Below, piece after piece: positions 18,627 through 46,373 of a DNA stretch of 64,000 nucleotides. A program made the position numbers and the translations under genes. Numbering within the stretch: the stretch's first letter is position 1; the number at the start of each line of letters is the position of its first letter. Origin of the DNA: Clitopilus passeckerianus (Eukaryota > Basidiomycota > Agaricomycetes > Agaricales > Entolomataceae); contig CALYLX010000061.1 in the NCBI GenBank assembly GCA_944990035.1, positions 1-64,000 of the forward strand. Reading direction: 5' to 3'. Below the pieces are notes generated by a model. The model did no database searches. It was given only the letters and a program-made list of their open reading frames with translations, and was not told the DNA's origin.

Positions 18627-21600
18627 ATGGATCTGCCAGTCCACCTCCCGGTAAGCCAATTACCGGGTTAATTCTGTCTGGGATTCACTAACTTTCACTT
18701 CGCCAGTTGGCCCGTCTTCCGTGAGTATGACCTGCTGCCCACTTGCATGTCTCATGCGTCATGCGTCCTAGTCCCAGCAATCTGTGGAGCCCCCAAGAAG
18801 TAACCCTTTAGGCCCAAACGTGAGTCTTCGTCAACATATGCCTCAGCATGCCTTTTCTCATAGACACCTAGAATACTCTAATACGAACCTCCACTGTACA
18901 ATCACCTCTTCACGAGAGCCAAGTATACGCGAAGTATCTCCTCCCAAAGAAGCATGGATATCCTCTTTGGATACCCCAACCTCCGAATGATTTGCCTCCC
19001 CAATACACTCAGATTGGTATCAGTATTGGCGATGTCGGTATCATCACCCTGACGGCGCTTTCGACTTCCTTTTCAACGTACTCCTACCATCCGACGACCC
19101 TATCAACGGCGGATACGTTCCAGACGACTTTGTGCCACTTCGCTTCGGAGCAAGAGACATACGGGTGAACGAGCCTGCTTGGGATGAGAATACTTGTGTT
19201 TCGAGCCACTATATCCAAAACCAGAAAGTCTTCTCGTAAGTCCTTCAATATCGAAGAATCTTAACTATCTCATGACTTTTCCAGCGACGACACCTGCGCA
19301 GCCTACATTTTTACCTGTACTGCCAGCAACGGTGCCATTCTGACACTGCCCAAAGGCGCCGTTCGCCAGGATCTCAGAAACATGAACGCACTCGCTGCAT
19401 ACGCCATGAAGAATTCTCTCAGCTGGTACCAATACATGAACAAAATCCGTGGTTGGGAGGCACCCAACGGGTCACTCTATATCATAACTGGTTGCGACAA
19501 GACCTCCCTCTGGGGAAACGCTTCATTCTCCAACGCTGCGATGGCTCGTAGCTTCGATTTACGTTTCAAGATTGCCAACACCCGACCACCTGTTTCCCCG
19601 ACAGAAGCATCTCGTTCATACTTCTGGGAACAAACCATCTTTGCCTCCACCAAGACCACCCCGAGACATGCGCCAACCGGCCCTACCAACCAATGCGTCT
19701 TCTTGCGTGGATTCCAGATTCGGGTTCGAGAGAATGCCCTAGCTGCGTTGATCAGCAAAGTCACTGTAACGGATGTATCCACGGTCAAGCCTGCCTCAGT
19801 TCTTGCCAGAAGCAAATTTATACCGTTTGGGAACTTTGGGAGGTCCTCAATGCTCAGCTTGGGCCGCCTATCTCCGACCGGGAAAGGAAGCACGAGACAT
19901 GAACGGGCTGCATCTGATGCCACTTCACGGAGTGGATGGAGCCTTGGAAAGCCCGCAAGCGAGGGGTATGAGGGTATTGATGCTACCCTTATTCGAAACT
20001 TCTCCACCTATGGGGAGGTATGATCACGATATTGACCGCCTCTAATCCTTTTCTGACCTATCCTCTATAGCGATTCCATCCCTCGGATATCATCAATGCA
20101 TACCTTCTTGACAACGTAAGTTCCACCTAATAAAGTACTACATAAAACCTAAAGACGATGTTCAATGAATAGAACACGGATGCGAAGGTGGCCATCACTC
20201 ATGATAATGTCTGGATGACGTTGGTTAATGAGGTAGATATGTGCGACTCCTTTATCGGAATTATCAGAACTGATTTGGATATTATAGGGTGAACGCTTGG
20301 TTCCAGCCGCGGACGAGCTTATTAGACGTTTACATACTTATTATGAGGTGGTGTGCAAGGATGGTGAATAGCTTCCTGATCTGTCGAGCGTTATGTCGGT
20401 GCTAACGACATTGAAGACTCGGTTTCCGTTACCCGACGTTCAAAGCCACTTGTCACAGACGCCACACCATTGGCAATACAGACTCAAGGTACCGGTCTCG
20501 ACTGCCGTGCCACGCCAAGTACTAACCATTCATCGATAGCATTACCGCCCATGTCAGAACTGGCCTCCACGAAATTAGGCGAACTTCAGCAAGGGCCATA
20601 TAAGGAGGTGAGCAGGCGTTCTTTCGGCCCTAGTCTTTATACCCCATCGAATTCGTGAATCTGACACTTCTGACGTAGGTATTTCAAGATTGGGCAGCCT
20701 GGCAGCCTGATCCAGTGGGCAATTCATGGAACAATCCTTCGACCGTCAAAGAGCAACCTGCACCGGAATTACCTCCAACTTCTATTCCCCAATTTGGGCT
20801 GCCAATGCGAACTTGGCAGACAGGCTGGCAACCAGATCCATCCGAAGCCCCATCTTTGCCCCTCCGCATGCTCCTGACATATCTGGAAAGCTTTCCAACA
20901 CCTCGTCTCCCAAAGGAAGCGAAACTTATGGAAAACCTCTAAGTGATGTAAACTTTGAGAGGTCACGATCCACAGTCGAGCGTAAAACGCTTCACCAACT
21001 TGTCGGCATCTTGGAGAAGGAAGAAGGGTCGATGAATGGTGACTGGAAGACCCCGAATGGCAGGACGTTGCTCTCTATTTTGGCAGAGCGGGGGCGTCGC
21101 GCTGCTGTTCAACGCCTACTATCTTCGGGCAATGTCCAGCCCGACGAGACGGACGGCGCTGGCCGAAGTCCACTCTCCTACGCAGCTGAAATGGGCCATC
21201 CGAGCGTCGTCAGCTTGCTCCTTGAGAAAGGAGCTGATGTGAATCTCAAGGATCCCAATGGACGCACACCCCTTTCGTTTGCGGCTTCTAGAGGTCAGGC
21301 TGAGGCCATGAAGATCCTTCTCCAGCAGCCGAAGGCTGACCTCGACATGCGAGATTCAAAGCAAAGAACTCCGCTGTCACATGCAGCTGAACATGGACAC
21401 GTTGAAGCCCTTAACTGTTTGTTACGGTGCGGTGCCGATATGAACGCCGAGGACGCTGAACAAAGGACGCCTTTCTCATATGCCGCCCAAGAGGGACAAG
21501 ACCAGATCATCTGGAGTTTGATGTCGCGACCGGGTCTCAAATTCGAGGCCGCTGATTGCGACAATAGGACACCAATGTTCCATGCTGCCATCAATGGTCA

Positions 21601-23551
21601 TCTTGCAACATTTGAGACCATATTGAGGAAGGCACCTCTCAGTTCCCCTCCCATAGCAGGTTTAAATCAGGCACTCACGACTGTCACGACCTCCCCCAGA
21701 CTCAGTTCAACCCCGTTGGTCGTCAAGGATCGCCTTGGAAGGGATATGATATCGTATGTGGCGGAACGTGGACACGGAGATGTCTTGCATTACCTTGTTC
21801 AGCGAGGCGTGAACGTTAATTCGTCGGCGGCGGAAGGGCGTACCCCACTCTCTTTGCAGCAGGAGGTGGAGACATCGAAGTTGTAACTTCTTGCTTGCGC
21901 AACCTCGAATTGTGGTTGACCTCGGAGACAGAAATCGCATGACGCCGCTTGCGCACGCTGCCGCGCAGGGTCATCCCGATATCATCTCCCTCCTCCTCAA
22001 GAAAGGCGCACAGATCAACTCCAGAGATACCAACGAACGTACTCCCCTATCTGTCGCTGCAGAGAACGGGCACCTAGGAGTTGTCAATCGCCTGCTTGCC
22101 TCTCGAACGATCCTGGCCGACCTCATGGACAACCGACTCAGAACACCACTGTCCTACGCGGCAGAGAAGGGACACGTCGAGGTTCTGAAAGTGCTCCTTG
22201 AGAAGCGTGTCGATCTCAACTTCTGTAGTCTTAAAGGCAGGACAGCCTTGTCCTTTGCAGCGGGGAATGGTCAATTGGGGACAGTTCAACTGCTTTTGAA
22301 ACATCCTTTCATCCTTGCGGATGCGGTGGACCATGAGTTGAAGACTTCACTATTCCATGCTGCACAAAATGGACACATTTCCGTCGTTAAGGAGCTGGTA
22401 GGCATGGACATACGTGCCAATGCAGATTCGCCAGATAATCACATCCTAGCCCTCGTTACCCGATCGAGGAAGGTCGACAGCACGCTTAGCGGATCCCAAC
22501 ACTCACGAACATATAATAATTTGTTTTCCGCGTGGATGGATATCTATGGTCGAACCCCACTCTCCTATGCCGTTGAATACGGACATCGCGACATTTTCGA
22601 CTTCTTCCTGGAACGCAATTTCGACCCTGCCCTCCCCGATAAACGAGGTCGCACACCTCTGTCATATGCCGCAGAGAAAGGTCGGATCGAGCTTGTCGAG
22701 CGCCTTGTGAGATTCAACACTCAGGTCATCAATCTCCGGGACGAACATGGTCGGACACCCTCTCGTACGCCGCAGAAAATGGGCGTGATGAAATCGTTGC
22801 AATTCTCCTACAAAATCGAGCAGCTCCTAACACCAGAGACCTCACTGGTCGGACACCATTATCCTTCGCTGCTGAACGAGGTTGCCTGTCGATTGTATGG
22901 TCACTCCTAGGTCGACGGGATGTTCAGGTTGACGCAGCAGATGATCAAATCCGAACACCACTTTCCTACGCTTGCGAGCACGGTCAAATAGAGGTCGTTT
23001 CTCGCCTCCTTGAAATGGGCAAAGCGGATGTCAACACAGAGGATAAGAACGGACGCACACCCTTATCATATGCAGCTGAGAACGGACACGCAGCAGCTGT
23101 ATACAAGCTCCTTGAACGTGACGACATCACAAATTCTCCCGATAAATCTGGCAAAAGTCCACTCTCTTACGCGAAAGAGAACGGGCACATCGCTGTGCTG
23201 AAGGCGTTTCTGGAGAAGGTCGTTGCGTCCCAGGAACCTGCCAAGATCATGCGGCCGATGGAGAGCGTGAAGAGAATAAGGCCTCCGCCTTCTTCAAACA
23301 AAAAGCGGAAGGATGTAACGATGCTGCAACGGCAGGTGGGGGAGATTCGGAAGGAGATGCTTGCGCTTGGAAGTCGTACAGATACTTCGCTGTCTGAAGA
23401 GGATGCCGCAGATCGCCAACGTGTTGCAGATATGCTTTCTTTTATCGACCCCCGTCCTAAAAGTTTCCTCAAGCGGATTCCTCACGAGTTTGGACGTTAT
23501 AAAAACAAAATCAGGGGGCTGGGCAGGCGGCAATGGGGTTTAGCTCAGTGA
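18627..23551 (+). CDS. Unknown basidiomycete domain fused to long ankyrin-repeat array
   Basis: The N-terminal part matches the copy at 25.0-26.9 kb. Landmarks are VYAKYLLPKKHGYPLWIPQP, ISIGDVGIIT, PAWDENTCVSSHYIQNQK, APNGSLYIITGCDK, NQCVFLRGF, FHPSDIINAYLL and KVAITHDNVWM. I know this as a widespread but functionally undefined mushroom family. The TAG at 20369-20371 can be removed as part of an intron (about 20362-20410), using the same splice point as in the paralogue. The message then runs through a linker with two WQPDP motifs into ankyrin repeats (RTPLSYAAENGH type) from about 21000 to 23210 and a basic, possibly coiled C-terminus. To read as one protein, single bases must be restored near 19048, 20860, 21854, 21890 and 22759. 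The start at ATG 18627 with small exons is tentative. Ankyrin arrays usually mediate protein binding. Confidence 0.65.
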
Positions 23552-25001: not shown

Positions 25002-26906
25002 TACCCTGTTACGTCCATCTGCTTCGCAGCTGCCTATCCATGATAGTGAGGTGTACGCTAAGAATTTGCTACCTAGAAAGCACGGCTACCCTCTCTGGAT
25101 TCCTCAACCCCCCGGCGATCTCCCTCCAGAATATACACAGAATGGCCTCAGCATCGGAGACGTAGGCATAATCACGCCAGATGGCCAATTTGACTTTCTG
25201 TTCAACGTCTTCCTACCTGCGGATGACCCCATCAATGGTGGTCTTGTGCCGGAAGATTTCGTTCCTCTATCTCTCGGCACAAGAGACGTCCGCTTCAATG
25301 AACCGGCTTGGGATGAGAATACTTGCGTGGCTAGTCACTTGATAGAGAACCAGAAAATCTACACGTGCGTTAACATTTCCGAGGTAACCCCCCGAGTTGC
25401 TGACGTTCCATCAGTCAATCGACATGCTCATCATACGTCTTCACCTGTACCTCAACGACAGGTGCAATCTTAGCCCTACCTAAAGGCGCATTTCGATGGG
25501 ACTTGCGCAATGTGAACGCCGTATCTTCGTACGCACTGGACCACGCTTTGACCTGGTATGAATTTATGAATCAAGTACGAGGATGGAACGCCCCAAACGG
25601 ATCCTTGTATATTATTACGGGATGCGATAAGACGACATTGTGGGGAAATGCCTCGTTCTCCCGTGATGCAAAGACGCATAATAGCTTCGACTTACGCTAC
25701 ACTCGGGAAATGCTCGACCAATTCCCCTCCAACGACGAGAATCAAGCCTATTTCTGGGAACAAACTATCTTCGCATCTACGAAATCGAATCCCCGACATC
25801 CCATAGCACGAAGTCCCAATCAATGTGTCTTTCTAAGGGGGTTTAAGATTCGAGTTAGAGAGAGCCTCTGGGATGCCCTGACCAGTCCTGGGACGGTGAA
25901 GGATGTATCCACCTGCAAACCAAACACGATTCTTTCGAAGAGTAAATATATACCCTTTGGAGGCGCTGAGAAACCGTCCAAAGCCTTCGGTGAAAGGTCA
26001 AGCAGAGGTAAACACAGATGATCAGCCCCTGGAGCCTGACGCCACGACTGTCGATGAGTCTTCCTCCTCTAATGAGGTTAGTTTGGTTCCATTATGTCGA
26101 GCTTAAAGTTGATCTGATTATTCTCTACGCAGGTCCCTCATCCTTCGGACTTGATTAACAAGTATCTACTGAGCGCCGTAAGTCTTATTTTGACTTTATG
26201 ACCTTATGATTGATGCCAGCTAAATAGGTCCTATTCTAGCACGAAAATGTAAAGGTTGCGATTACACATGACGACGTGTGGATGTCTTTACTTGAAGAGG
26301 TAAGCCACCTTATCACGTCTCTTTGTGTAGTATCAAGTTTAGTGTTCCAACATCAGGGCGAGAATCTTGTTCCAGAAGAGGGAGATCTCATCAGGCGTAT
26401 GACCGAACGCTGGAAAGTAGTGTGCAGTGGTGGTACGTTGGCAGGTTATCGCTTGGGGGCTCACTTGATACCCATTACTGCTTTTAGACGGTATCTATCC
26501 TGCCATGAACGACATGGATATCCAAGGTCCTGCAGAGACGCCCAACGAAGAAACAGAGGACCAGGCCGCTGATATGATCTCACCCGAGGCACAACCTCCT
26601 GCAGAAAATTCCGGAGAAACGGCACCACCTCCAACGTACGATTCAGACGTTGCAAGCACACCTAACCCAGCACGGCCCCAGTCCTCAGCGGCTTCACGAG
26701 CGGAGTCTCCGATTCGCGAAATCGAAATTGTTAGGGCTCCGAAACGACCTCCGAGCATATACAAGTACACACCATTGGTTACATCTCCTACACCTGTCAG
26801 CGAGGAGTTCCCGGAAGTCCGACCACCGAGAAGGGTTCTTGTAAAGAGTGCCGCACGCAGAATATTGTGGAGGGTGTTTCATCCTCGAAGTCGACGTTTG
26901 AATTAG
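25002..26906 (+). CDS. Unknown basidiomycete domain protein with Pro/Ser-rich tail
   Basis: Paralogue of the N-terminal part of the 18.6 kb gene. Exon around 25002-25364 carries VYAKNLLPRKHGYPLWIPQP, SIGDVGIITPDGQFDFLFNV and PAWDENTCVASHLIENQK. The next exon (about 25427 onward) has APNGSLYIITGCDKTTLWG and NQCVFLRGFKIRVRE. Small exons follow: VPHPSDLINKYLLSA, HENVKVAITHDDVWMSLLEE, GENLVPEEGDLIRRM. The last exon, after the acceptor near 26488, gives a tail of about 140 residues rich in Pro, Ser, Glu and Thr that ends in a basic stretch, stop 26904-26906. Unlike its paralogue it has no ankyrin repeats. One frame change around 25950-26000 is unexplained. I could not find the initiator; the true start is probably a short upstream exon. 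Function unknown. Confidence 0.6.
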
Positions 26907-27175
26907 CTTGAGGGGAATCAGAGTTTACTCCCTTCCGGCGTATTTATTTCTCTGTTATTATCTACGTGTAGTCTATAACCGTATACCCCTACATAATTGA
27001 AGTCCTGCTGAAGAGGAAATAAGCGCCCATTGATCATTTCGATCAACGAGACTCCAACTCAACTCAATCCTTCTTGACACCACAAATGACTACTCCTCCC
27101 CGATGACGACACCTCCGGGGTACGAATATAACTTCAGATAAATCTACTTCAGAACCACGATAACATACCTCACAC

Positions 27176-27922
27176 ATGGATCCCTCCAACAACGACTCCC
27201 CAGACTCAAGCACCTTCGCCCTCCCCTTCAACGCCTTCTTCTCCCTCATCTCCTTCATCGCCTCCGTAAACATCGCCCTCTGCATCGGCGCCTCCCTCAC
27301 CTTCGCCACAGCCGAAAACCTCCTCGGATCTTCAGCTGATGAAGATATAGCCAGAGCCTCGAAGGGAGCGGTATTTTTTGCATGGGCGGGGGCAGCGAAT
27401 GGTGCTGCGCTGATATTGACGCTGCTATCGCAGTTGTTGTATACGAGTCCGACGTTTGTGGGGTTGTTTGTGAAGGAGGATGGGAATATTCGGACTGGCA
27501 CGGGAGGGACAAGTCCTCATGGTAGGAGGAGAGGAAGTGGGTATGGTGGACAGTCAAGGGTTAATACGGTTGGGAGTTTGAATTTGAGTGGGATGACGAG
27601 TGAAAGGAAGGAGAGGAGGCGTTTATCTCATGATGAGAATACCCATCGTGACTCGGACCCAGAACCTCAACTCGGGCAACAACCACAACGTGGTGGGTTT
27701 CGAGACAAGTGGATGCGTTGGCTCATGGGTACCATTGCATGGGGGAGTTTGGCCCTAGTCGCTGCTGGGTTAGGCCTGATTGGGGAAGGGATGAAGGTGG
27801 TTGATGAGACGGTTGGGGCGATTATGGAATGGATGTTGTTGCTGTTTGGATTGCCTACGTTTTTGTTCTGGATTGCGTTGCAGGTGATGGTGAGGGTGCC
27901 GTATATTGAGAGGTCGAGATGA
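27176..27922 (+). CDS. Four-helix membrane protein, paralogue 1
   Basis: Single-exon frame of 248 codons from ATG 27176. It has four hydrophobic segments: about residues 18-45 (FSLISFIASVNIALCIGASL), 66-90, 184-206 and 216-240. Between helices 2 and 3 is a polar insert of about 75 residues rich in Gly, Arg and Ser that is absent from the two paralogues (175 residues each, at 41674 and 43315). Family signatures are FFxLISFxASV near the N-terminus, QLLYTSPTF after helix 2, and GLIGEGMKVxD between helices 3 and 4. I do not recognise a named family, and no catalytic motif is visible. Upstream at 27012-27064 is a block shared with 23.85 kb. Membrane location is a direct prediction; function is unknown. 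Confidence 0.7.
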   Translation: MDPSNNDSPDSSTFALPFNAFFSLISFIASVNIALCIGASLTFATAENLLGSSADEDIARASKGAVFFAWAGAANGAALILTLLSQLLYTSPTFVGLFVKEDGNIRTGTGGTSPHGRRRGSGYGGQSRVNTVGSLNLSGMTSERKERRRLSHDENTHRDSDPEPQLGQQPQRGGFRDKWMRWLMGTIAWGSLALVAAGLGLIGEGMKVVDETVGAIMEWMLLLFGLPTFLFWIALQVMVRVPYIERSR

Positions 27923-28770
27923 GTTGGCGGGTCTGAGAAACACATCCTGTGCTATACACTGTACCATTATACCAACTTTCCTGTAATACCACTCTCAATC
28001 ACGTTCTCCTGGAGGACATATCCCGCTGTCGTTAGCGTTTGACAAATCGTCCAACGGGCCTGCCGCGAACGCAATCTGTACCTGCAGTAATGCGCCGCAC
28101 CGCACGGAACTCTGCAAGAAATCTGACCCTGGACCTGCCAGTGCATTCCCTGTCATCAAATCCCTCGTGGGGTGAAGTATCTGGGAAAGTCTCATCAATT
28201 CATCATGCTAACCCACATCCATCGACTTCCATTGGACTATGCACCATCTTTCTGCCTCTCATCTCCTCCTCGCAGCACCCCAGCAGCCAAAACCAAAATT
28301 GCCAAACGCTTCGGCACCACCGGAACGCGATTAGGCGCCAAAATTTGATTGGCGTGGGAATGAAGGACTACCATAACAGGCTTGCGCAGCGTTGGTTCCT
28401 GTGTCACCAAGGCCCTGGCCCAAACTGTCCGCAGAACACAGCAACAACGTTTGGCGGTACAGCCACACCACACTCAGCACTGTCCGTCAATCAATTGCTC
28501 CCTTCCAGACAGTCACCGCCGCGTTGTCAGTGGCCTGCTCGCAGCTTTATACACTCGGCGGCTATCGGGTGTCTCCACTCTTTTCTTCTTGCTACTATCG
28601 CCTTCATCTGGGTCAATCCCGTTCTTTATTGGCTTCTTTGATTGAACTGTATATTTCGAGCAACGACATCATCGAGGGCATCAGGCCACTTCAATCCCAC
28701 TGTTCGTTGATACTGTTTTCGTGGCAGAAGAAGAACATAACGACGCGCAAGGCAGCGTTCTAAAGTCACC
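27923..28770. other. Intergenic, upstream of chitin synthase
   Basis: Long 5' flank of the chitin synthase gene. Open frames here are in all directions and show no family features, so I see no supported gene. Confidence 0.45.
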
Positions 28771-31700
28771 ATGAACCGTTTCCCCCCTCCAGAAGCAGAC
28801 GAAGGCCAGAGAAGGCATTACAACGACTCGTACAACCCCTACGAGCAAGCACAACCCAACTACCCTCCCGCCCCTCCTCAGGCTCCCTATCCACCTCCGT
28901 CTCATACACCTCAACCATATGGGCACCAGGACCCGTTCTCCTCACCACCAAGGGAGTCGTTCTCCATTCTGGCGCCTCCGCCGCCTCCACCTCAGCTCGA
29001 GAACAACCCTTTTGCAAGTGGATATAACCAGAGCCCGTATTCGAATCCAATGTCTCCACCTCCCGGTGGACCCAGACCTATGAGTGGGTACGGTGGCCCA
29101 GGCGGATTCACGCCTCCCCCTCCTCCACCCAATGCAGGCTCTCCACCCCGACCGAACGTTCACCCCCTACATAACCAATCCAGCTTCCCCAGCACTACCG
29201 CGTACAACACCTCATACCAGGACGAGGAGCAGCACGAACAGGAGCATGACGGGAGCGGTGCTATACCTCTCCTCCGACGCGACCCTTCACAGAGCGATAG
29301 CTTCGTGAACGTGGACATGCCCATTCCTGGCGCTTATGGATACCCACCAGGACCAGGTGACGACGAGGCGAACAATATTCGCTATGGAAGAATCCCCGCT
29401 CGCGTTCCTCGCCGATACAAGACGATCAAGAAAGTCGAGCTGTTCCATGGGAACTACGTCAACGACCAACCAGTGCCCTCTAAACTCCTCGACCTGTGTG
29501 GCAACCGCACGGATAGGGAGTTCACGCATATGCGCTACAGCGCTGTGACGTGTGACCCTAATGGGTTCAGTGATTCTGGGTTCACGCTGAGGCAGATTCA
29601 CTATGACCCGCCGAGGAGGACGGAGCTGTTTATTGTGATGACGATGTACAATGAGGATGAAGAGTTGTTTTGCAGGACGATGCATGGTGTGATGAAGAAT
29701 ATTGCGCATTTGTGTAAGAGGGAGAGGAGTAAGACCTGGGGGAAGGAGGGATGGAAGAAGGTGGTGGTGTGTATTGTTAGTGACGGACGAGCGAAAATCC
29801 ACGCGAGGACGTTGAGTGTTATTGCTGCAATGGGGGCTTATCAGGAGGATGTTGCCAAGGTGGGAAGGTGGTTTGCTATTTTCAGAAACGAATATTGACC
29901 TTTTATACCCATTTATAGCAAGCAATCAATGGCACACCAGTCACAGCGCACGTCTTTGAGTACACAACTCAAGTCAGTGTGACACCCAATCTCAAAATCG
30001 AAGGTCCGGAAAAGGGAATGGTTCCTGTCCAAATTATATTCTGCCTCAAAGAACTCAACGCCAAGAAGATCAATTCCCATCGGTGGTTCTTCAATGCCTT
30101 CGGCCCGGTCCTCCAGCCTAACGTCTGTGTCCTGCTTGATGTTGGAACTGAACCCGGTCCAACGAGTATCTATCATTTGTGGAAGGCCTTCGACATCAAC
30201 TCGAATGTTGGCGGTGCTTGTGGAGAGATTGTCGCGCTGAAGGGCAAGTACTGGAGGAATCTGTTGAACCCGCTGGTCGCTGCGCAGAACTTTGAGTACA
30301 AGATGAGTAACATCCTCGACAAGCCTTTGTGAGTCTTCTCTGCCCTCAGCAAACTGCACCATCCTGACAAGGCGACGACAGGGAATCGATTTTCGGCTAC
30401 ATCACGGTGCTTCCGGGAGCGTTCTCTGCATATCGGTACATTGCTCTGCAAAATGACGTGACGGGCGAAGGGCCGCTGCAGAAGTATTTCCTGGGTGAAA
30501 AGATGCACGGTGCTGGTGCAGATATCTTCACTGCCAACATGTACCTCGCTGAGGATCGTGTAAGTTGCATTTTCTTCCCCGCCTTACCCAATCTCACCTT
30601 TCCACCCGTATAGATCCTTTGTTGGGAACTCGTCTCCAAACGCGGTGGCTCCTGGACTCTTCACTACGTCAAGTCCGCCTACGCCATCACCGATGTGCCA
30701 GACCAAGTCCCCGAATTGATTTCCCAACGTCGACGATGGTTGAACGGCTCTTTCTTCGCTGCTGTTCACTCGACTGTGCATTTCTACTATATCTATCGCA
30801 GCTCGCATTCATTTGTGAGAAAGGCGTGGATCCATGTGGAGATGTTCTATCAGCTATTCAACTTGATTTTCAGTTGGTTCGCTTTGGTGAGTTTGCTTGC
30901 GTTCTAATGCTGCTTGAGGAGAGGATGCTGATGGTTTATGCATGATAGGCCAATTTCTACATTGCATTCTCGGTTCTTACTACGGCTATGGAAACCCTCT
31001 ACCGCCAGACGCGTTGGGTCAATATCATCCTGAACTACTTTTACGTTGGACTGTTGATCATGTGCTTCATCCTGTCACTTGGAAATCGACCGCAAGGTAG
31101 CAAGTGGGGTTATACCCTCGCGATGCTTGGGTTTGCTGTTGTCACGGTATACATGACTGTATGCGCTCTCTTCCACCGCTCCCAAGTTCAGGAAGCTAAT
31201 AAGACTTATAGACTGCAGCCTTCCTACTTGCGATCAAGGGTATCCAGCAAGTGGCCGACGAGATCAAGCAAAACACTGGACAAGCCATCGGTGTTGGAGA
31301 TGTCTTCACCAACCCGATTTTCAGAAACATTGTTTTGTCGATTTTGGCTACCACTGGTCTTTATCTCATCGCTAGTTTGATTTTCGTGAGTCGCCTCGTC
31401 CATGCCTTTCCGCCTAGCGTATACTGACAAAATCCACCCTCATCACACAGTTCGAGCCTTGGCACATGATCACCTCCTTTATCCAATACCTCCTCATGGC
31501 CCCCTCCTACATTGCCGTTCTGAACGTCTACGCATTTGCAAACGTGCACGACGTTTCTTGGGGTACCAAGGGTGACAATGCACCCGGTCAGAAGCTTGAC
31601 AAGATCGAAACCGGCAAAGGCGAGAACAAGAACACGGTCGAGGTCGCTGGGCCAACGAGTGAAAAGGATCTGAACATGTTATACGAAGACGCTATCCACG

Positions 31701-41673: not shown

Positions 41674-42201
41674 TCAGGGACCCTTTTCCGTCCCGTCGAG
41701 GTTAGGGTGTGGTGGCCGAATAACAAGCCAGAACGCCCAGATCGGCAGCCCAAACGCCAGGAGAATCCACTCCAGCATCGTCCCTACACGCACATCCAAC
41801 ACCTTCATCCCTTCGCCAATCAATCCAGTCGCACCCACGACCAGCCCTAGTGAGATCCAAGCCCCAGCACCGACCGCCTGCTTTATCTTGTTTCGGTCTT
41901 GTCCACCCATGAGCAATGTAGTGAAGGTTGGGCTCGTATAAAGTAGCTGGAATAGCAGGGAGAGGATCAGAGCTGATCCATTGATGGCTGCAGCCCAGCC
42001 AAAGATGTTTGCGCTGCGGTAGACTTGGGCGAGAAATTCGTCGTCGGTGCGCCCTAAGAATGCCTTGCAAGATGCCAGGCCTAATGATGCCGAAATTGAT
42101 ATGGAGGTTGTTAAGGATGAGATGAATGATATCAAGGCAAAGAAATCCTTGAAGGGGACATAAGGTTCTGAGGAGGTAAAGAACATTGTTGTAGGCATCA
42201 A
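41674..42201 (-). CDS. Four-helix membrane protein, paralogue 2
   Basis: Single exon of 175 codons from ATG 42199-42201. It has four hydrophobic segments and the same landmarks as the proteins at 27176 and 43315: PFKDFFALISFISSL, FLGRTDDEF, QLLYTSPTFTTLL, GATGLIGEGMKVLD and LEWILLAFGLPIWAFW. The connecting loop between helices 2 and 3 is short. A TATA-like TTATAAA lies about 45 bases upstream (42243-42250). Function unknown; it is probably in the plasma or an internal membrane. Confidence 0.7.
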   Translation of the reverse strand: MMPTTMFFTSSEPYVPFKDFFALISFISSLTTSISISASLGLASCKAFLGRTDDEFLAQVYRSANIFGWAAAINGSALILSLLFQLLYTSPTFTTLLMGGQDRNKIKQAVGAGAWISLGLVVGATGLIGEGMKVLDVRVGTMLEWILLAFGLPIWAFWLVIRPPHPNLDGTEKGP

Positions 42202-43314
42202 GAACGACGATACAACTGTTCAGGGACTGCAGAAAGGCGACGTTTATAACGTTTGCAATGCAGTGAGGCTGACGTCTTCAAATCCAGGCAACGACGTCGC
42301 TTCAGCATAGCAACTGTCCTGCGGGCGATGCATTCAACGAATCCCGGTAAGGGAGCAGGCTAGGATTCACATGGTTAGCAAGGGTATTACACTTCAACGC
42401 AGTCCTTCCTACAAACGACAAAGGTGTGGCCTCTAATCGACTCAAACCAATGAAGCCCATTCAACCAGAAGCAGATGTGTTCTCTTGTTCACTCAGGGTA
42501 GCCCGCCCGCTTCTGATCTTGCCACAAATCCAGCCCAGCAGGAGACCGAGGCTCTTGCAAGCACAGAGACCAAGGAAGTCAGATTATTGAATAGAAGGCT
42601 CCAACGTGCATCAAGGATATGAGCTAAACCCAGTTTATCGAGCTCAGTGTTAGAGAGGTTCAGATCCGGAAGTCGCGGCTTGCAAGCCGGGTCGATAGAG
42701 ACGAGGGTATCCGAGAATCCGTATTAGGTGTCGAGGAATGTTGGAAGCTACGACCTTTGTATGAAATCTATCCTTTCCGGACTCCAACTTTGTACTTGAC
42801 GCTCAGGCTTTCATTCTGCCATTGTGGTTTTGTTGGTGGAGGTGTCGCTGTCAGATGCCCGGCAGTAATGGCCGTAATCTCCGACTCGGCATCTCCCGTG
42901 CAAATTCCAACACGCACTCAGTTCATCGGGCGCCTATTGGGCGTTAATTTGAATGAAGGCTCCTCAGTGCTTTAACTGCGGGAAGGCGAGCCTTTTCCAA
43001 AAAGCCGTAAAATTTTCACTAATCTACTTAAAACAGCCTAATGGCACTCAAATGGCCAGAACATTTTAGCAGGATCAGGATTTCTGGTAGGCATTGAGTG
43101 GTGCATGCGCGGCCACACTGGCAAGCTCGTCTTTGTTCTTCAACTTGTAGCCTATACGGGGGTTCTGACTTGCGTCCTACGGGATCTTCTACAAATACAA
43201 AGGGCTTGTCTTTGGTCTCTAAACCTGGCTCTTTGAAGAAGCTGACTTTTCTCGAGGTGGTTGCTCCTTGTGTTTTTGCTTGATGCAGAGGAAAGGCACA
43301 AGTCAGCCTGAGCG
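42202..43314. other. Intergenic, no gene recognised
   Basis: About 1.1 kb between membrane paralogues 2 and 3 with no supported coding region. A + strand frame ending in Cys-Val-Phe-Ala at about 43283 was examined and rejected as a pheromone. Confidence 0.4.
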
Positions 43315-43842
43315 TCAACGGTGAGCATCAGTAGAACATACCCGCATTCGAAGCGCTATCCAGAACACGAGTACAGGTAGACCGAAAGCAAGCAGAGTCC
43401 ACTGCAGCAAGGCCCCTACGCGTCTGTCAATGACCTTCATCCCTTCCCCTATCAGGGCCGTTCCTCCTGCCACTAGCGCCAGATTGATCCACGCGACACT
43501 TCCAACCAGCCACCTCATCAGCCTCTTGTGCGGCTTCGCTAACAGAAGCTTCCCAAATCTAGGGCTCGTGAACAGCAGCTGCGAGAGCAGGGAGAGGAAG
43601 AGTGCAGCGCCATGGACTGCTGATGACCATGCGAAGACCTGTGCTCCATGGCGAACGATTGCTATGGACTCGTCGTCGGTACGCCCGAAGAAGGATTGGC
43701 TGCAGGCCAAGGTGAGCGACGCTGATATGCAGACCGCGACATCAACAGAGGCGATGAAGGAGATGAGGGCAAAGAAGTTCTTGAAGGGAATGTATGACTC
43801 GGTTGTGTCTTCTTGGGCGGTTTCTGAAGGTAGGAGGGACAT
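43315..43842 (-). CDS. Four-helix membrane protein, paralogue 3
   Basis: Single exon of 175 codons from ATG 43840-43842, closest in length and layout to paralogue 2. Landmarks are PFKNFFALISFIASVDVAVC, FFGRTDDESIA, GAALFLSLLSQLLFTSPRF, GGTALIGEGMKVID and LLQWTLLAFGLPVLVFWIAL. Four hydrophobic segments are clear and the loop between helices 2 and 3 is short. A TATA-like AATATAA (- strand) lies at 43921-43927, about 80 bases upstream. It is in tandem with paralogue 2 on the same strand. Function unknown. Confidence 0.7.
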   Translation of the reverse strand: MSLLPSETAQEDTTESYIPFKNFFALISFIASVDVAVCISASLTLACSQSFFGRTDDESIAIVRHGAQVFAWSSAVHGAALFLSLLSQLLFTSPRFGKLLLAKPHKRLMRWLVGSVAWINLALVAGGTALIGEGMKVIDRRVGALLQWTLLAFGLPVLVFWIALRMRVCSTDAHR

Positions 43843-44110: not shown

Positions 44111-44774
44111 GAAGCCCACAGAGCGAGCTGGACGTAGTCACCGTGGCTCACAAGCTGTGTTAGTAACATTAAAAAGGTGTGTGCTGACGAAATGGAACCT
44201 CCAAACCTTGGTGATGTCGGTGACTGACCTGATCGTCATGATCTGATACGGCAAAGAACCGGAGTTCAACACCCTTGTTTTTGGATTGCAACCGCTCCTG
44301 GGCTGCATAGCACTTTCGTAAATTCCAGGTTCGTGGCTCAGAAGGATGGTCGTGTGAAATAGTCAAACAATTGGTGGCCAGTAAAGAGGACCAATATACT
44401 GTTACAAGTTACACGTAATGTACTACGGATTTCCGCGCACTAATAAAGATAAGGTATTGTGTAGTATCTACAAATGTGACCATTGGTATGAGATGATGCG
44501 CATTGCTGGCTATGCGGTGATGCAGATGTGGTAACCCTTGATGAAATAATAGGGAATAACAATAGTTTAGAGTCCGAAGAACGAAGGGAGGGTGATAAAG
44601 GTGCCTAGATGAAGGCGAAACGAAGAACGAAGTGGTTTTGTGAGGTCTCGCAAAAATTACAGGCGAGTCTGTGGTATCGGGGTGAGTATGTGACCTGGAT
44701 AAAGAATGGTGTTAGTACTAAGCTTTGCTAGAAACACGAAAGAACGCACGTACCCGACAAGAGCGCTAACTCAG

Positions 44775-44972
44775 CTAAGCAATGACGCAGTACGGCCCTC
44801 CCTGGTTGGTGCCGGTCCCATCTTCATTGTCAACGGGAATGTCCTCCCATTCCGTGGAGGTGCTGGTCTTCGTGGAGGCTGCGTGGCCTTCCGTGACAGT
44901 GTTGGCCTGGCCAGATGTTGGAGCAGATTGCTCGTTGGAGAGGTAGGCAAGGATGGAAGAGAAGCGATCCAT
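44775..44972 (-). CDS. Candidate mating pheromone precursor (CaaX, CVIA)
   Basis: A 65-codon frame from ATG 44970-44972, beginning MDRFSSILAYL and ending GGPYCVIA before TAG 44775-44777. Basidiomycete lipopeptide pheromone precursors are typically 50-80 residues, often begin MDxF, are Ser/Thr-rich in the middle and end in a CaaX box that is farnesylated on Cys, trimmed and methylated. All these features are present. An acidic pair (Glu50-Asp51) lies 11-12 residues before Cys62, at the usual place for N-terminal processing. A 12-residue mature peptide starting DGTG is therefore plausible. A TATA-like CTATAAA is about 80 bases upstream. No STE3 receptor was found in the window, so a full mating-type B locus is not shown. 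Confidence 0.75.
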   Translation of the reverse strand: MDRFSSILAYLSNEQSAPTSGQANTVTEGHAASTKTSTSTEWEDIPVDNEDGTGTNQGGPYCVIA

Positions 44973-45049
44973 TGGTCTGTAGTGCAAGACTGGGGTAATG
45001 GTGGTACGGGAGGCCGCTTAACGAAAGAGAAGAATCGATGTCGTTGGGC

Positions 45050-45056
45050 TTTATAG
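45050..45056 (-). promoter_or_regulatory. TATA box of the pheromone precursor gene
   Basis: CTATAAA on the - strand, about 80 bases upstream of the pheromone ATG at 44972, a good core-promoter position. Confidence 0.45.
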
Positions 45057-46373
45057 GAATTGGGACAATGCAAGTCGCATGCAGGAAACTCTAGTCCCTT
45101 CCGTTCCGAAGTAAGGGTCAAAGCACCGAGATGTACTAGATCCCCCCTAAAGAGGCGAACTTTGTGGGGTGGCGCCGTTTTAGGTGCCCACGATGCTCAG
45201 CGCACAAAAAGATTCGCAATGTGCAGGGCTGACTCGAGGCGCCTCACCGACATGGATCTACACCGAAACAATAAAACATTTTCGGGGGACAGGAAAAAGA
45301 TATATTTTTGACAAATAGAAGCCTTGGCATGAAGGAATGTGCCTCATATGAACTCATGTGGCCGTGAGGTGAAAGACAATAAACATTGATCTGAGGTTAC
45401 GTTTGCGGAAGCTGGATCTGATTAGATGAAATGAGGGTGGTCAAGAACAAAAAGACGGAGACGTCATCAGGACAACCAAAGGCACTAACCCCTAATTAGA
45501 CTTTTGACGGCAGAGGCTCGAGCCCGTACTTGAGAAAACCGCCGATGACAAACCAAGGAATGCGGTAGCTGAGGGTAGCTGTCGACGATTGAAGCAGGCG
45601 TAAGCCCCAGGATGGGTCGCAGTATCATTCACCCAGCAGCTTTGTATCGTTCGGCAAGTTTGTCTACCCGAATCCGACGAGAACCGCAAGAATGGAGATG
45701 TCCGCTAGAAAGAGATGCAATCCCTTATTTCTCAGGAGAAAGGCGCGTCATGTTGTGAGTCTGTGTCGGTCGCTTCCAAGTATCGCTCATTGACCAGACT
45801 CAAGTTCATGCCAGTGTTGATGCCAGATGGGATTGAAAGTCTGAAGAGGTTCATCGGGGTGGGATGCAGGTTGGCTAGCCTACGGTACACAAGCAGCGTT
45901 TCAGAGCGCCTTTAAAAGGTTTGTTCAATTGGAGAACCGGCACCATGCAGTAATGAGGCTTTGGCATGGGGTGCGCCTCGTGTTTGATCCCGCAGTGGTG
46001 GAAGCCCGAGCATGTTCCGTCAGAGGCTGACGCTGAGCTCGTTATCATTTCAAGTCGGCGGGTACACGGAGCATACTGTTCAACATAAACCGCCGGGGAC
46101 TAATGAATCTTCATTTTTTTCGGCCAGGTATGCATGGCTTTCTGTTTTTTTTTAGGATGATTGTCATCATGGAGCTAACGAGTGACTGATCATGATTACG
46201 TATCGGTGCCCTGGAGGCTGCAGCTCTGTGGTACTTGTAAATGAATGTTACTGAAATCACTTTTTGGAGATGCGTTTCTTTCAGATTGTATAAAAGCAAT
46301 AAATACGGAATAAGTAAGAGCGAAGTCCAAGTTGGTGGGCCTTGAGATTCTTGATGCAGTGGCGTGCATATTT
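45057..46373. other. Intergenic, no further pheromone gene seen
   Basis: Scanned by eye on both strands for stop codons preceded by CaaX-type codons. None gave a Cys four codons before a stop with a plausible start. No other gene supported. Confidence 0.4.

Follow-up and report, generated by a model that had tools for sequence, protein, structure and literature searches.

A probable non-mating pheromone-like precursor gene of Clitopilus passeckerianus, distant from STE3 receptors and present in two nuclear copies

Pheromone precursors with a C-terminal CaaX motif are processed in the manner of a-factor, which comprises farnesylation of the Cys, removal of the last three residues, carboxymethylation and cleavage at a charged pair (PMC8305134). 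In Agaricus bisporus, four such genes are known, none of which, as far as the excerpted text of PMC8305134 goes, was found linked to ste3.2, the orthologue of mating receptors. At least three of these non-mating precursors are expressed with a 3′UTR intron, and their mature peptides, which are G-rich and 11–13 aa long, are alike between strains (same excerpts). In the available portion of PMC4101180, Pycnoporus cinnabarinus is credited with seven precursors of 39–65 aa with MDA/DF starts, four of the seven resembling non-mating ones, and in that of PMC5755439 two pheromone-like peptides of Pleurotus tuoliensis lie on scaffolds other than those of the two linked to the B locus. Further pheromones are expected away from receptors, where a mating-type-specific role is unlikely (PMC3140503, in excerpt). 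Among mating precursors, those of the Pleurotus ostreatus matB locus measure 51–72 aa (PMC13108863, in excerpt). In Trichaptum, Asp and Glu are both highly conserved at the maturation site, and Asp follows the first Met in most precursors, according to the excerpted PMC8970355. It took a CaaX script to recover about half of the precursors discussed in the available part of PMC5473757, in support of the statement of the original prediction that genes of this kind are routinely missed by automatic annotation.

The window analyzed here is the whole 64,000-nucleotide stretch of C. passeckerianus DNA, on contig C61. Its pheromone-like frame runs on the minus strand from 44972 to 44775 (65 codons followed by a TAG stop) and encodes the 65-residue precursor MDRFSSILAYLSNEQSAPTSGQANTVTEGHAASTKTSTSTEWEDIPVDNEDGTGTNQGGPYCVIA. 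The coordinates 44775..44972 given in the original prediction are correct, and the strand, which it had left unstated, is minus. The features described there can all be seen in the sequence: an N-terminal MDRF, a composition rich in Ser and Thr, a C-terminal CVIA, and an acidic pair, E50-D51, that stands 12 and 11 residues ahead of C62. The TATA box that had been placed about 80 bases upstream is a TATAAA at 45055–45050, and 83 bases separate it from the ATG. The acidic pair falls within the 10–15 residues before the CaaX end that are expected of fungal pheromone precursors, and reads ED where ER is usual. The observation of a pheromone-type frame is thus confirmed, and its parts and surroundings are as follows.

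44775..44972, minus strand: pheromone-like precursor frame, 65 codons plus TAG (ORF reading, Pfam, copy comparison)
44787..44819, minus strand: coding part for GTGTNQGGPYC, the predicted mature peptide, residues 52–62 (putative cleavage after E50-D51; rules of PMC8305134)
44778..44789, minus strand: CaaX codons, CVIA (frame translation)
45050..45055, minus strand: TATA box, TATAAA, 83 bases ahead of the start codon (also present in the copy on contig C140)
44695..44753, minus strand: likely 3′UTR intron of 59 bases, 21 bases past the stop (signals conserved in the C140 copy)
45056..45209, minus strand: 154-base segment directly upstream of the TATA box (in the C61 copy, absent from C140)
43318..43842, minus strand: next downstream frame, 175 aa, hydrophobic (context; ORF reading)

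Scanned alone, the window copy gives a full-length match to the Pfam pheromone profile PF08015 at 21.5 bits (E 0.00053), 0.5 bit short of the curated cut-off of 22 bits; the C140 copy, at 22.6 bits, is above the cut-off, and the peptides of a second precursor pair, on contigs C149 and C74, reach 22.7 and 22.8 bits. For comparison, the E values given in the available text of PMC3140503 for Flammulina velutipes precursors found on receptor contigs are 0.0013, 0.45 and 0.035, to be set against E 0.00053 for the window copy with the proviso that Pfam release and search differ. A six-frame PF08015 search of the entire 64.8 Mb genome returned five matches at E ≤ 10, every one below the cut-off, among which the window copy is weak (E 0.105, 19.8 bits). 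Four of the five are two allelic pairs of small CaaX genes, this pair included, and the window frame and its C140 copy rank among the genome’s four best PF08015 matches. A PF08015 match of 15.5 bits lies on C54, and a search of the surrounding 4.5 kb for CaaX frames built like a pheromone precursor found none. When six whole frames were scanned with Pfam over 43–48 kb at E ≤ 0.01, no family was detected, the precursor’s frame included, and the minus-strand PF08015 match surfaced only when the frame was scanned alone; in the six-frame scans of 38–48 kb at the same threshold, a serine carboxypeptidase on the minus strand was the sole family. Coding on the opposite strand, by a plus-strand frame at 44703–45056, was considered and rejected, as that frame has no Pfam match at E ≤ 0.01, a negative that weighs little because the minus-strand frame also gave none in the same scan. 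A search of a protein collection with the precursor found no homologue, nor was one found for the neighboring gene (E ≤ 0.01, 678 candidates); since the neighboring gene is equally matchless, this negative is uninformative, and the collection may hold few fungi.

Past the stop, splice signals mark out 59 bases (44753–44695, minus strand): the donor is GTACGT, the branch site TACTAAC and the acceptor CAG. The frame, the TATA spacing and the splice and branch signals all recur in the C140 copy. This exact intron pattern, written post hoc, has a single occurrence in the window where 0.11 would be expected, and 9 of 100 shuffles contain at least one. The second precursor pair has likely introns of 61 and 60 bases, placed 59 bases past the stop. 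By its signals, an intron in the 3′UTR, after the precursor stop, is likely in both the C61 and the C140 copy. Several features support the resemblance to a pheromone precursor noted in the original prediction: MDxF at the start and CaaX at the end, the charged pair between them, the match to PF08015 and a likely intron in the 3′UTR.

We consider this gene to be, probably, a non-mating-type pheromone-like precursor, whose product is perhaps a shared signal for non-mating STE3 receptors. By analogy with a-factor-type processing, Cys62 would be farnesylated, the residues VIA would be lost and the Cys would be carboxymethylated; the precursor would also be cleaved near E50-D51. The predicted export product would be GTGTNQGGPYC(farnesyl)-OMe, or alternatively a form one residue longer, DGTGTNQGGPYC. 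In the weakest step of the scheme, this peptide would be read by a non-mating STE3 receptor encoded elsewhere, as a signal common to both nuclei rather than a label of mating type. Two properties count against the non-mating assignment: the pair ED is missing from the list of ER, DR, EH, NH, EE and DE in PMC8305134, and 65 aa lies equally within the size range of mating precursors. GTGTNQGGPYC agrees with the Coprinopsis cinerea consensus GGGSGNGAYC at 4 of 10 positions and with that of Laccaria bicolor at 3 of 10. Without its Cys, the mature peptide matches the C. cinerea consensus no better than in shuffled order (7068 of 20000 shuffles are as good), and its likeness to the non-mating consensus comes down to G-richness and the YC end.

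A CaaX end does not by itself imply export, and the gene could encode a small prenylated protein that stays inside the cell, or a short CaaX protein of some other kind, with no release as a pheromone; the charged pair ED, instead of the usual ER, fits such a product. The MDxF start and the full-length match to the pheromone profile speak against it, as does the layout of TATA box, short frame and likely 3′UTR intron, which is shared with the second precursor pair, and we regard an intracellular product as unlikely.

Comparison of the two copies bears both on the reality of the gene and on its class. The 64.8 Mb genome is assembled in 160 contigs, with most tested sites present in two versions. 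The assembly looks like that of a heterokaryon with two nuclei, because two versions exist at most tested sites, the homeodomain locus included. Homeodomain genes with MIP lie at C19:44.6–55.2 kb and C111:153–165 kb, with homeodomain matches that differ between versions; their position beside MIP, together with the STE3 genes, points to a basidiomycete of the Agaricomycetes type. One homeodomain match and a further M3-peptidase gene are on C139. At all three places tested, C61 and C140 are collinear in opposite orientation, with identities of 95% at 28.7–29.5 kb, 95% at 44.8 kb and 93% at 60.4–60.9 kb. The start of a chitin synthase at 28741–29500 (plus strand) has a third copy on C60 that is 99% identical, the C140 copy being 95% identical; there may thus be some redundancy between contigs C60 and C61. 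The precursor gene is single-copy in each nucleus (C61 and C140), and a paralogue search across the genome gave two matches at E ≤ 10, both of them these copies. Between the two frames, 9 bases differ in 8 codons, with seven residue changes and one silent change at V63. All seven residue changes fall in residues 8–36, and the last 29 residues (37–65) are identical. A confinement of all seven to the first 36 of 65 residues has P 0.012 under random placement, for a boundary chosen post hoc. Codon positions 1, 2 and 3 carry 4, 2 and 3 of the changes, without synonymous bias, and conservation in the near flanks is about equal to that in the frame. The original prediction had held that conservation across the region with no coding bias would argue against a gene. 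On this point the frame does not come through cleanly, being unbiased as a whole and set in flanks of equal conservation; constraint is visible only in its quiet C-terminal half, the one expected to hold the mature peptide.

Directly upstream of the TATA box, the segment 45056–45209 is absent from C140, a promoter difference between the nuclei. A repeat or mobile element was rejected as its source, a second copy not being found in the assembly. Both nuclei encode the same predicted lipopeptide, and it is a highly speculative idea that one of them may mainly emit it, to be sensed by non-mating STE3 receptors of the dikaryon; one nucleus might control peptide output because only the C61 copy has the 154-base upstream segment.

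Could the frame be a chance occurrence or an unexpressed, decayed relic? Residues 8–36 vary freely between the copies and conservation equals that of the near flanks, which counts in favor of such a reading. Against this, the frame, the TATA box and the splice signals are intact in both copies. Strict CaaX frames of 35–110 codons number two in the window, one of them starting with MDxF; simulated DNA (150 first-order Markov sequences of 64 kb, 9.6 Mb in total) held a mean of 0.29 strict CaaX frames per sequence and none with the MDxF start. A looser scan of the window (25–130 codons) found 19 frames with Cys in fourth-last position, 5 of the 19 being loosely CaaX. The simulation, together with the place of this frame in the genome-wide top four for PF08015, led us to reject a chance CaaX frame, and chance or relic, taken together, is very unlikely.

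The position of the gene bears on the choice between the mating and non-mating readings. Matches to STE3 (PF02076) at E ≤ 0.001 number at least 33, on C66, C69, C106, C154 and C155, and represent at least six STE3 sites in the genome when allelic pairs are counted once. None is listed, at this threshold, on C61 (259,572 bp) or C140 (946,190 bp). The gene lies 45 kb from one end of C61 and about 215 kb from the other, and on C140 it has about 452 kb of contig on one side and about 494 kb on the other. It is therefore outside any receptor cluster, with none within several hundred kilobases on C140. The original prediction had seen no STE3 receptor in the window, a negative that, at E ≤ 0.001, holds for the whole of contig C61; the search of flanking sequence for STE3 that it proposed, run on C61 and C140, likewise gave no match at E ≤ 0.001. 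Three readings had been left side by side. An outlying B-locus gene is unsupported, C61 and C140 being without an STE3 match at E ≤ 0.001, and so, within that range, is the edge of a locus beyond the window, since C140 extends about 452 and 494 kb to either side without one. The best fit is the third reading, a non-mating pheromone-like gene, given a C-terminal half that is the same in both nuclei. A B-locus mature peptide is expected to differ between compatible nuclei, and the one predicted here does not differ between the two nuclei compared. The same mature end in both nuclei cannot distinguish them, so a mating-type role is unlikely. A link to the homeodomain (A) locus was rejected as well, the homeodomain genes and MIP being on C19 and C111. 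Within C61 and C140, the precursor is thus linked neither to mating receptors nor to the homeodomain locus. A rival reading makes it a B-locus pheromone gene with mating-type specificity, either displaced from its receptor or situated on the outer margin of an extended B locus. This agrees with the complete pheromone build of the precursor and with the existence of large B loci (177 kb between Flammulina subloci in the available text of PMC3140503), but is highly improbable given C140 flanks of about 452 kb and 494 kb with no STE3 match at E ≤ 0.001 and identical C-terminal halves where a specificity pheromone should differ, unless the nuclei share that sublocus. The pheromone build holds, and the B-locus readings, within C61 and C140, do not.

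Other sites in the genome carry related genes. The second pheromone-type gene lies at L039:2474–2620 and L040:2265–2411 (C149 and C74, both minus strand). Its ends differ between copies, NNQYLWCVIA versus NNQYAFCVVA, and divergence reaches 17–27% over the frame end and the 3′UTR intron, versus about 1–10% in the remaining full bins of 100 columns. Neither C149 nor C74 has an STE3 match listed at E ≤ 0.001. This gene looks nucleus-specific yet receptor-distant, because its ends differ and neither contig has an STE3 match. On C66, a frame ending in SERGVVIASVHGFCVIS (L044:4036–4170, plus strand) stands beside an STE3 match and has a weak PF08015 score of 16 bits; on C69, a frame ending in SERAVDIASVHGFCVIP (L019:14–106, minus strand) adjoins an STE3 match. 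The STE3 matches beside these two CaaX frames hold internal stops, from decay or from introns read through. C66 and C69 are 78% alike there over an aligned stretch of 1130 bases, versus 91–92% at two neighboring receptors, and the site is possibly a decaying, or diverged, receptor–pheromone cassette. A further region, L045 (C154:233000–242900), has two STE3 sites, the second extending beyond it, and comparison of the STE3 matches gave an allelic partner for neither. An exception to the two-version pattern, its 1.9 kb receptor flank had no second copy found in the assembly. A scan of the 9.9 kb for CaaX frames of pheromone type found none, and the region is read as a collapsed, or strongly diverged, locus.

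Within the window, three hydrophobic frames that are similar by eye, at 27164–27922 (plus strand), 41674–42219 (minus strand) and 43318–43842 (minus strand), form a local gene family; a protein collection search with the last of them found no relative (E ≤ 0.01, 678 candidates). Another two frames similar by eye, at 19265–20023 and 25404–26021 (both plus strand), flank ankyrin-repeat frames at 20711–23551, and a Pfam scan of the former gave no match.

Taken alone, the gene adds an unremarkable member to a class already described. One conserved candidate ligand away from receptors, one with nucleus-specific ends and at least six STE3 sites make up a small, testable ligand–receptor set. The differing mature ends of the second precursor pair, and the 154-base segment that sets the two promoters apart, leave more to be explained.

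Among known systems, the B mating-type precursors (PF08015; Flammulina, Trichaptum and Pleurotus, from excerpted sources) have in common with the present gene the build, the length range and the profile match. Those precursors adjoin STE3 and differ between mating types, in the same excerpts, whereas the present gene does neither, in the two copies compared. With the precursors of Pycnoporus cinnabarinus, compared by description only in the available part of PMC4101180, it shares the length range, an MDA/DF-type start and the CaaX end. The non-mating precursors of Agaricus and Pycnoporus, in the excerpts at hand, come as several similar ones, unlike here, where no paralogue was found. The precursor is also longer than those of A. 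bisporus, at 65 aa versus 44–54 aa (PMC8305134, in excerpt), and has an ED pair, and its mature sequence is not significantly like those of the Agaricus, Coprinopsis and Laccaria class. It is nonetheless this class of non-mating precursors, from A. bisporus, C. cinerea and L. bicolor, that it resembles in the MD-x-F start, the CaaX end and a charged pair at the expected distance, in a G-rich mature end in YC and a 3′UTR intron (likely here), and in being unlinked to a mating receptor with the same mature end across nuclei or strains (available text of PMC8305134).
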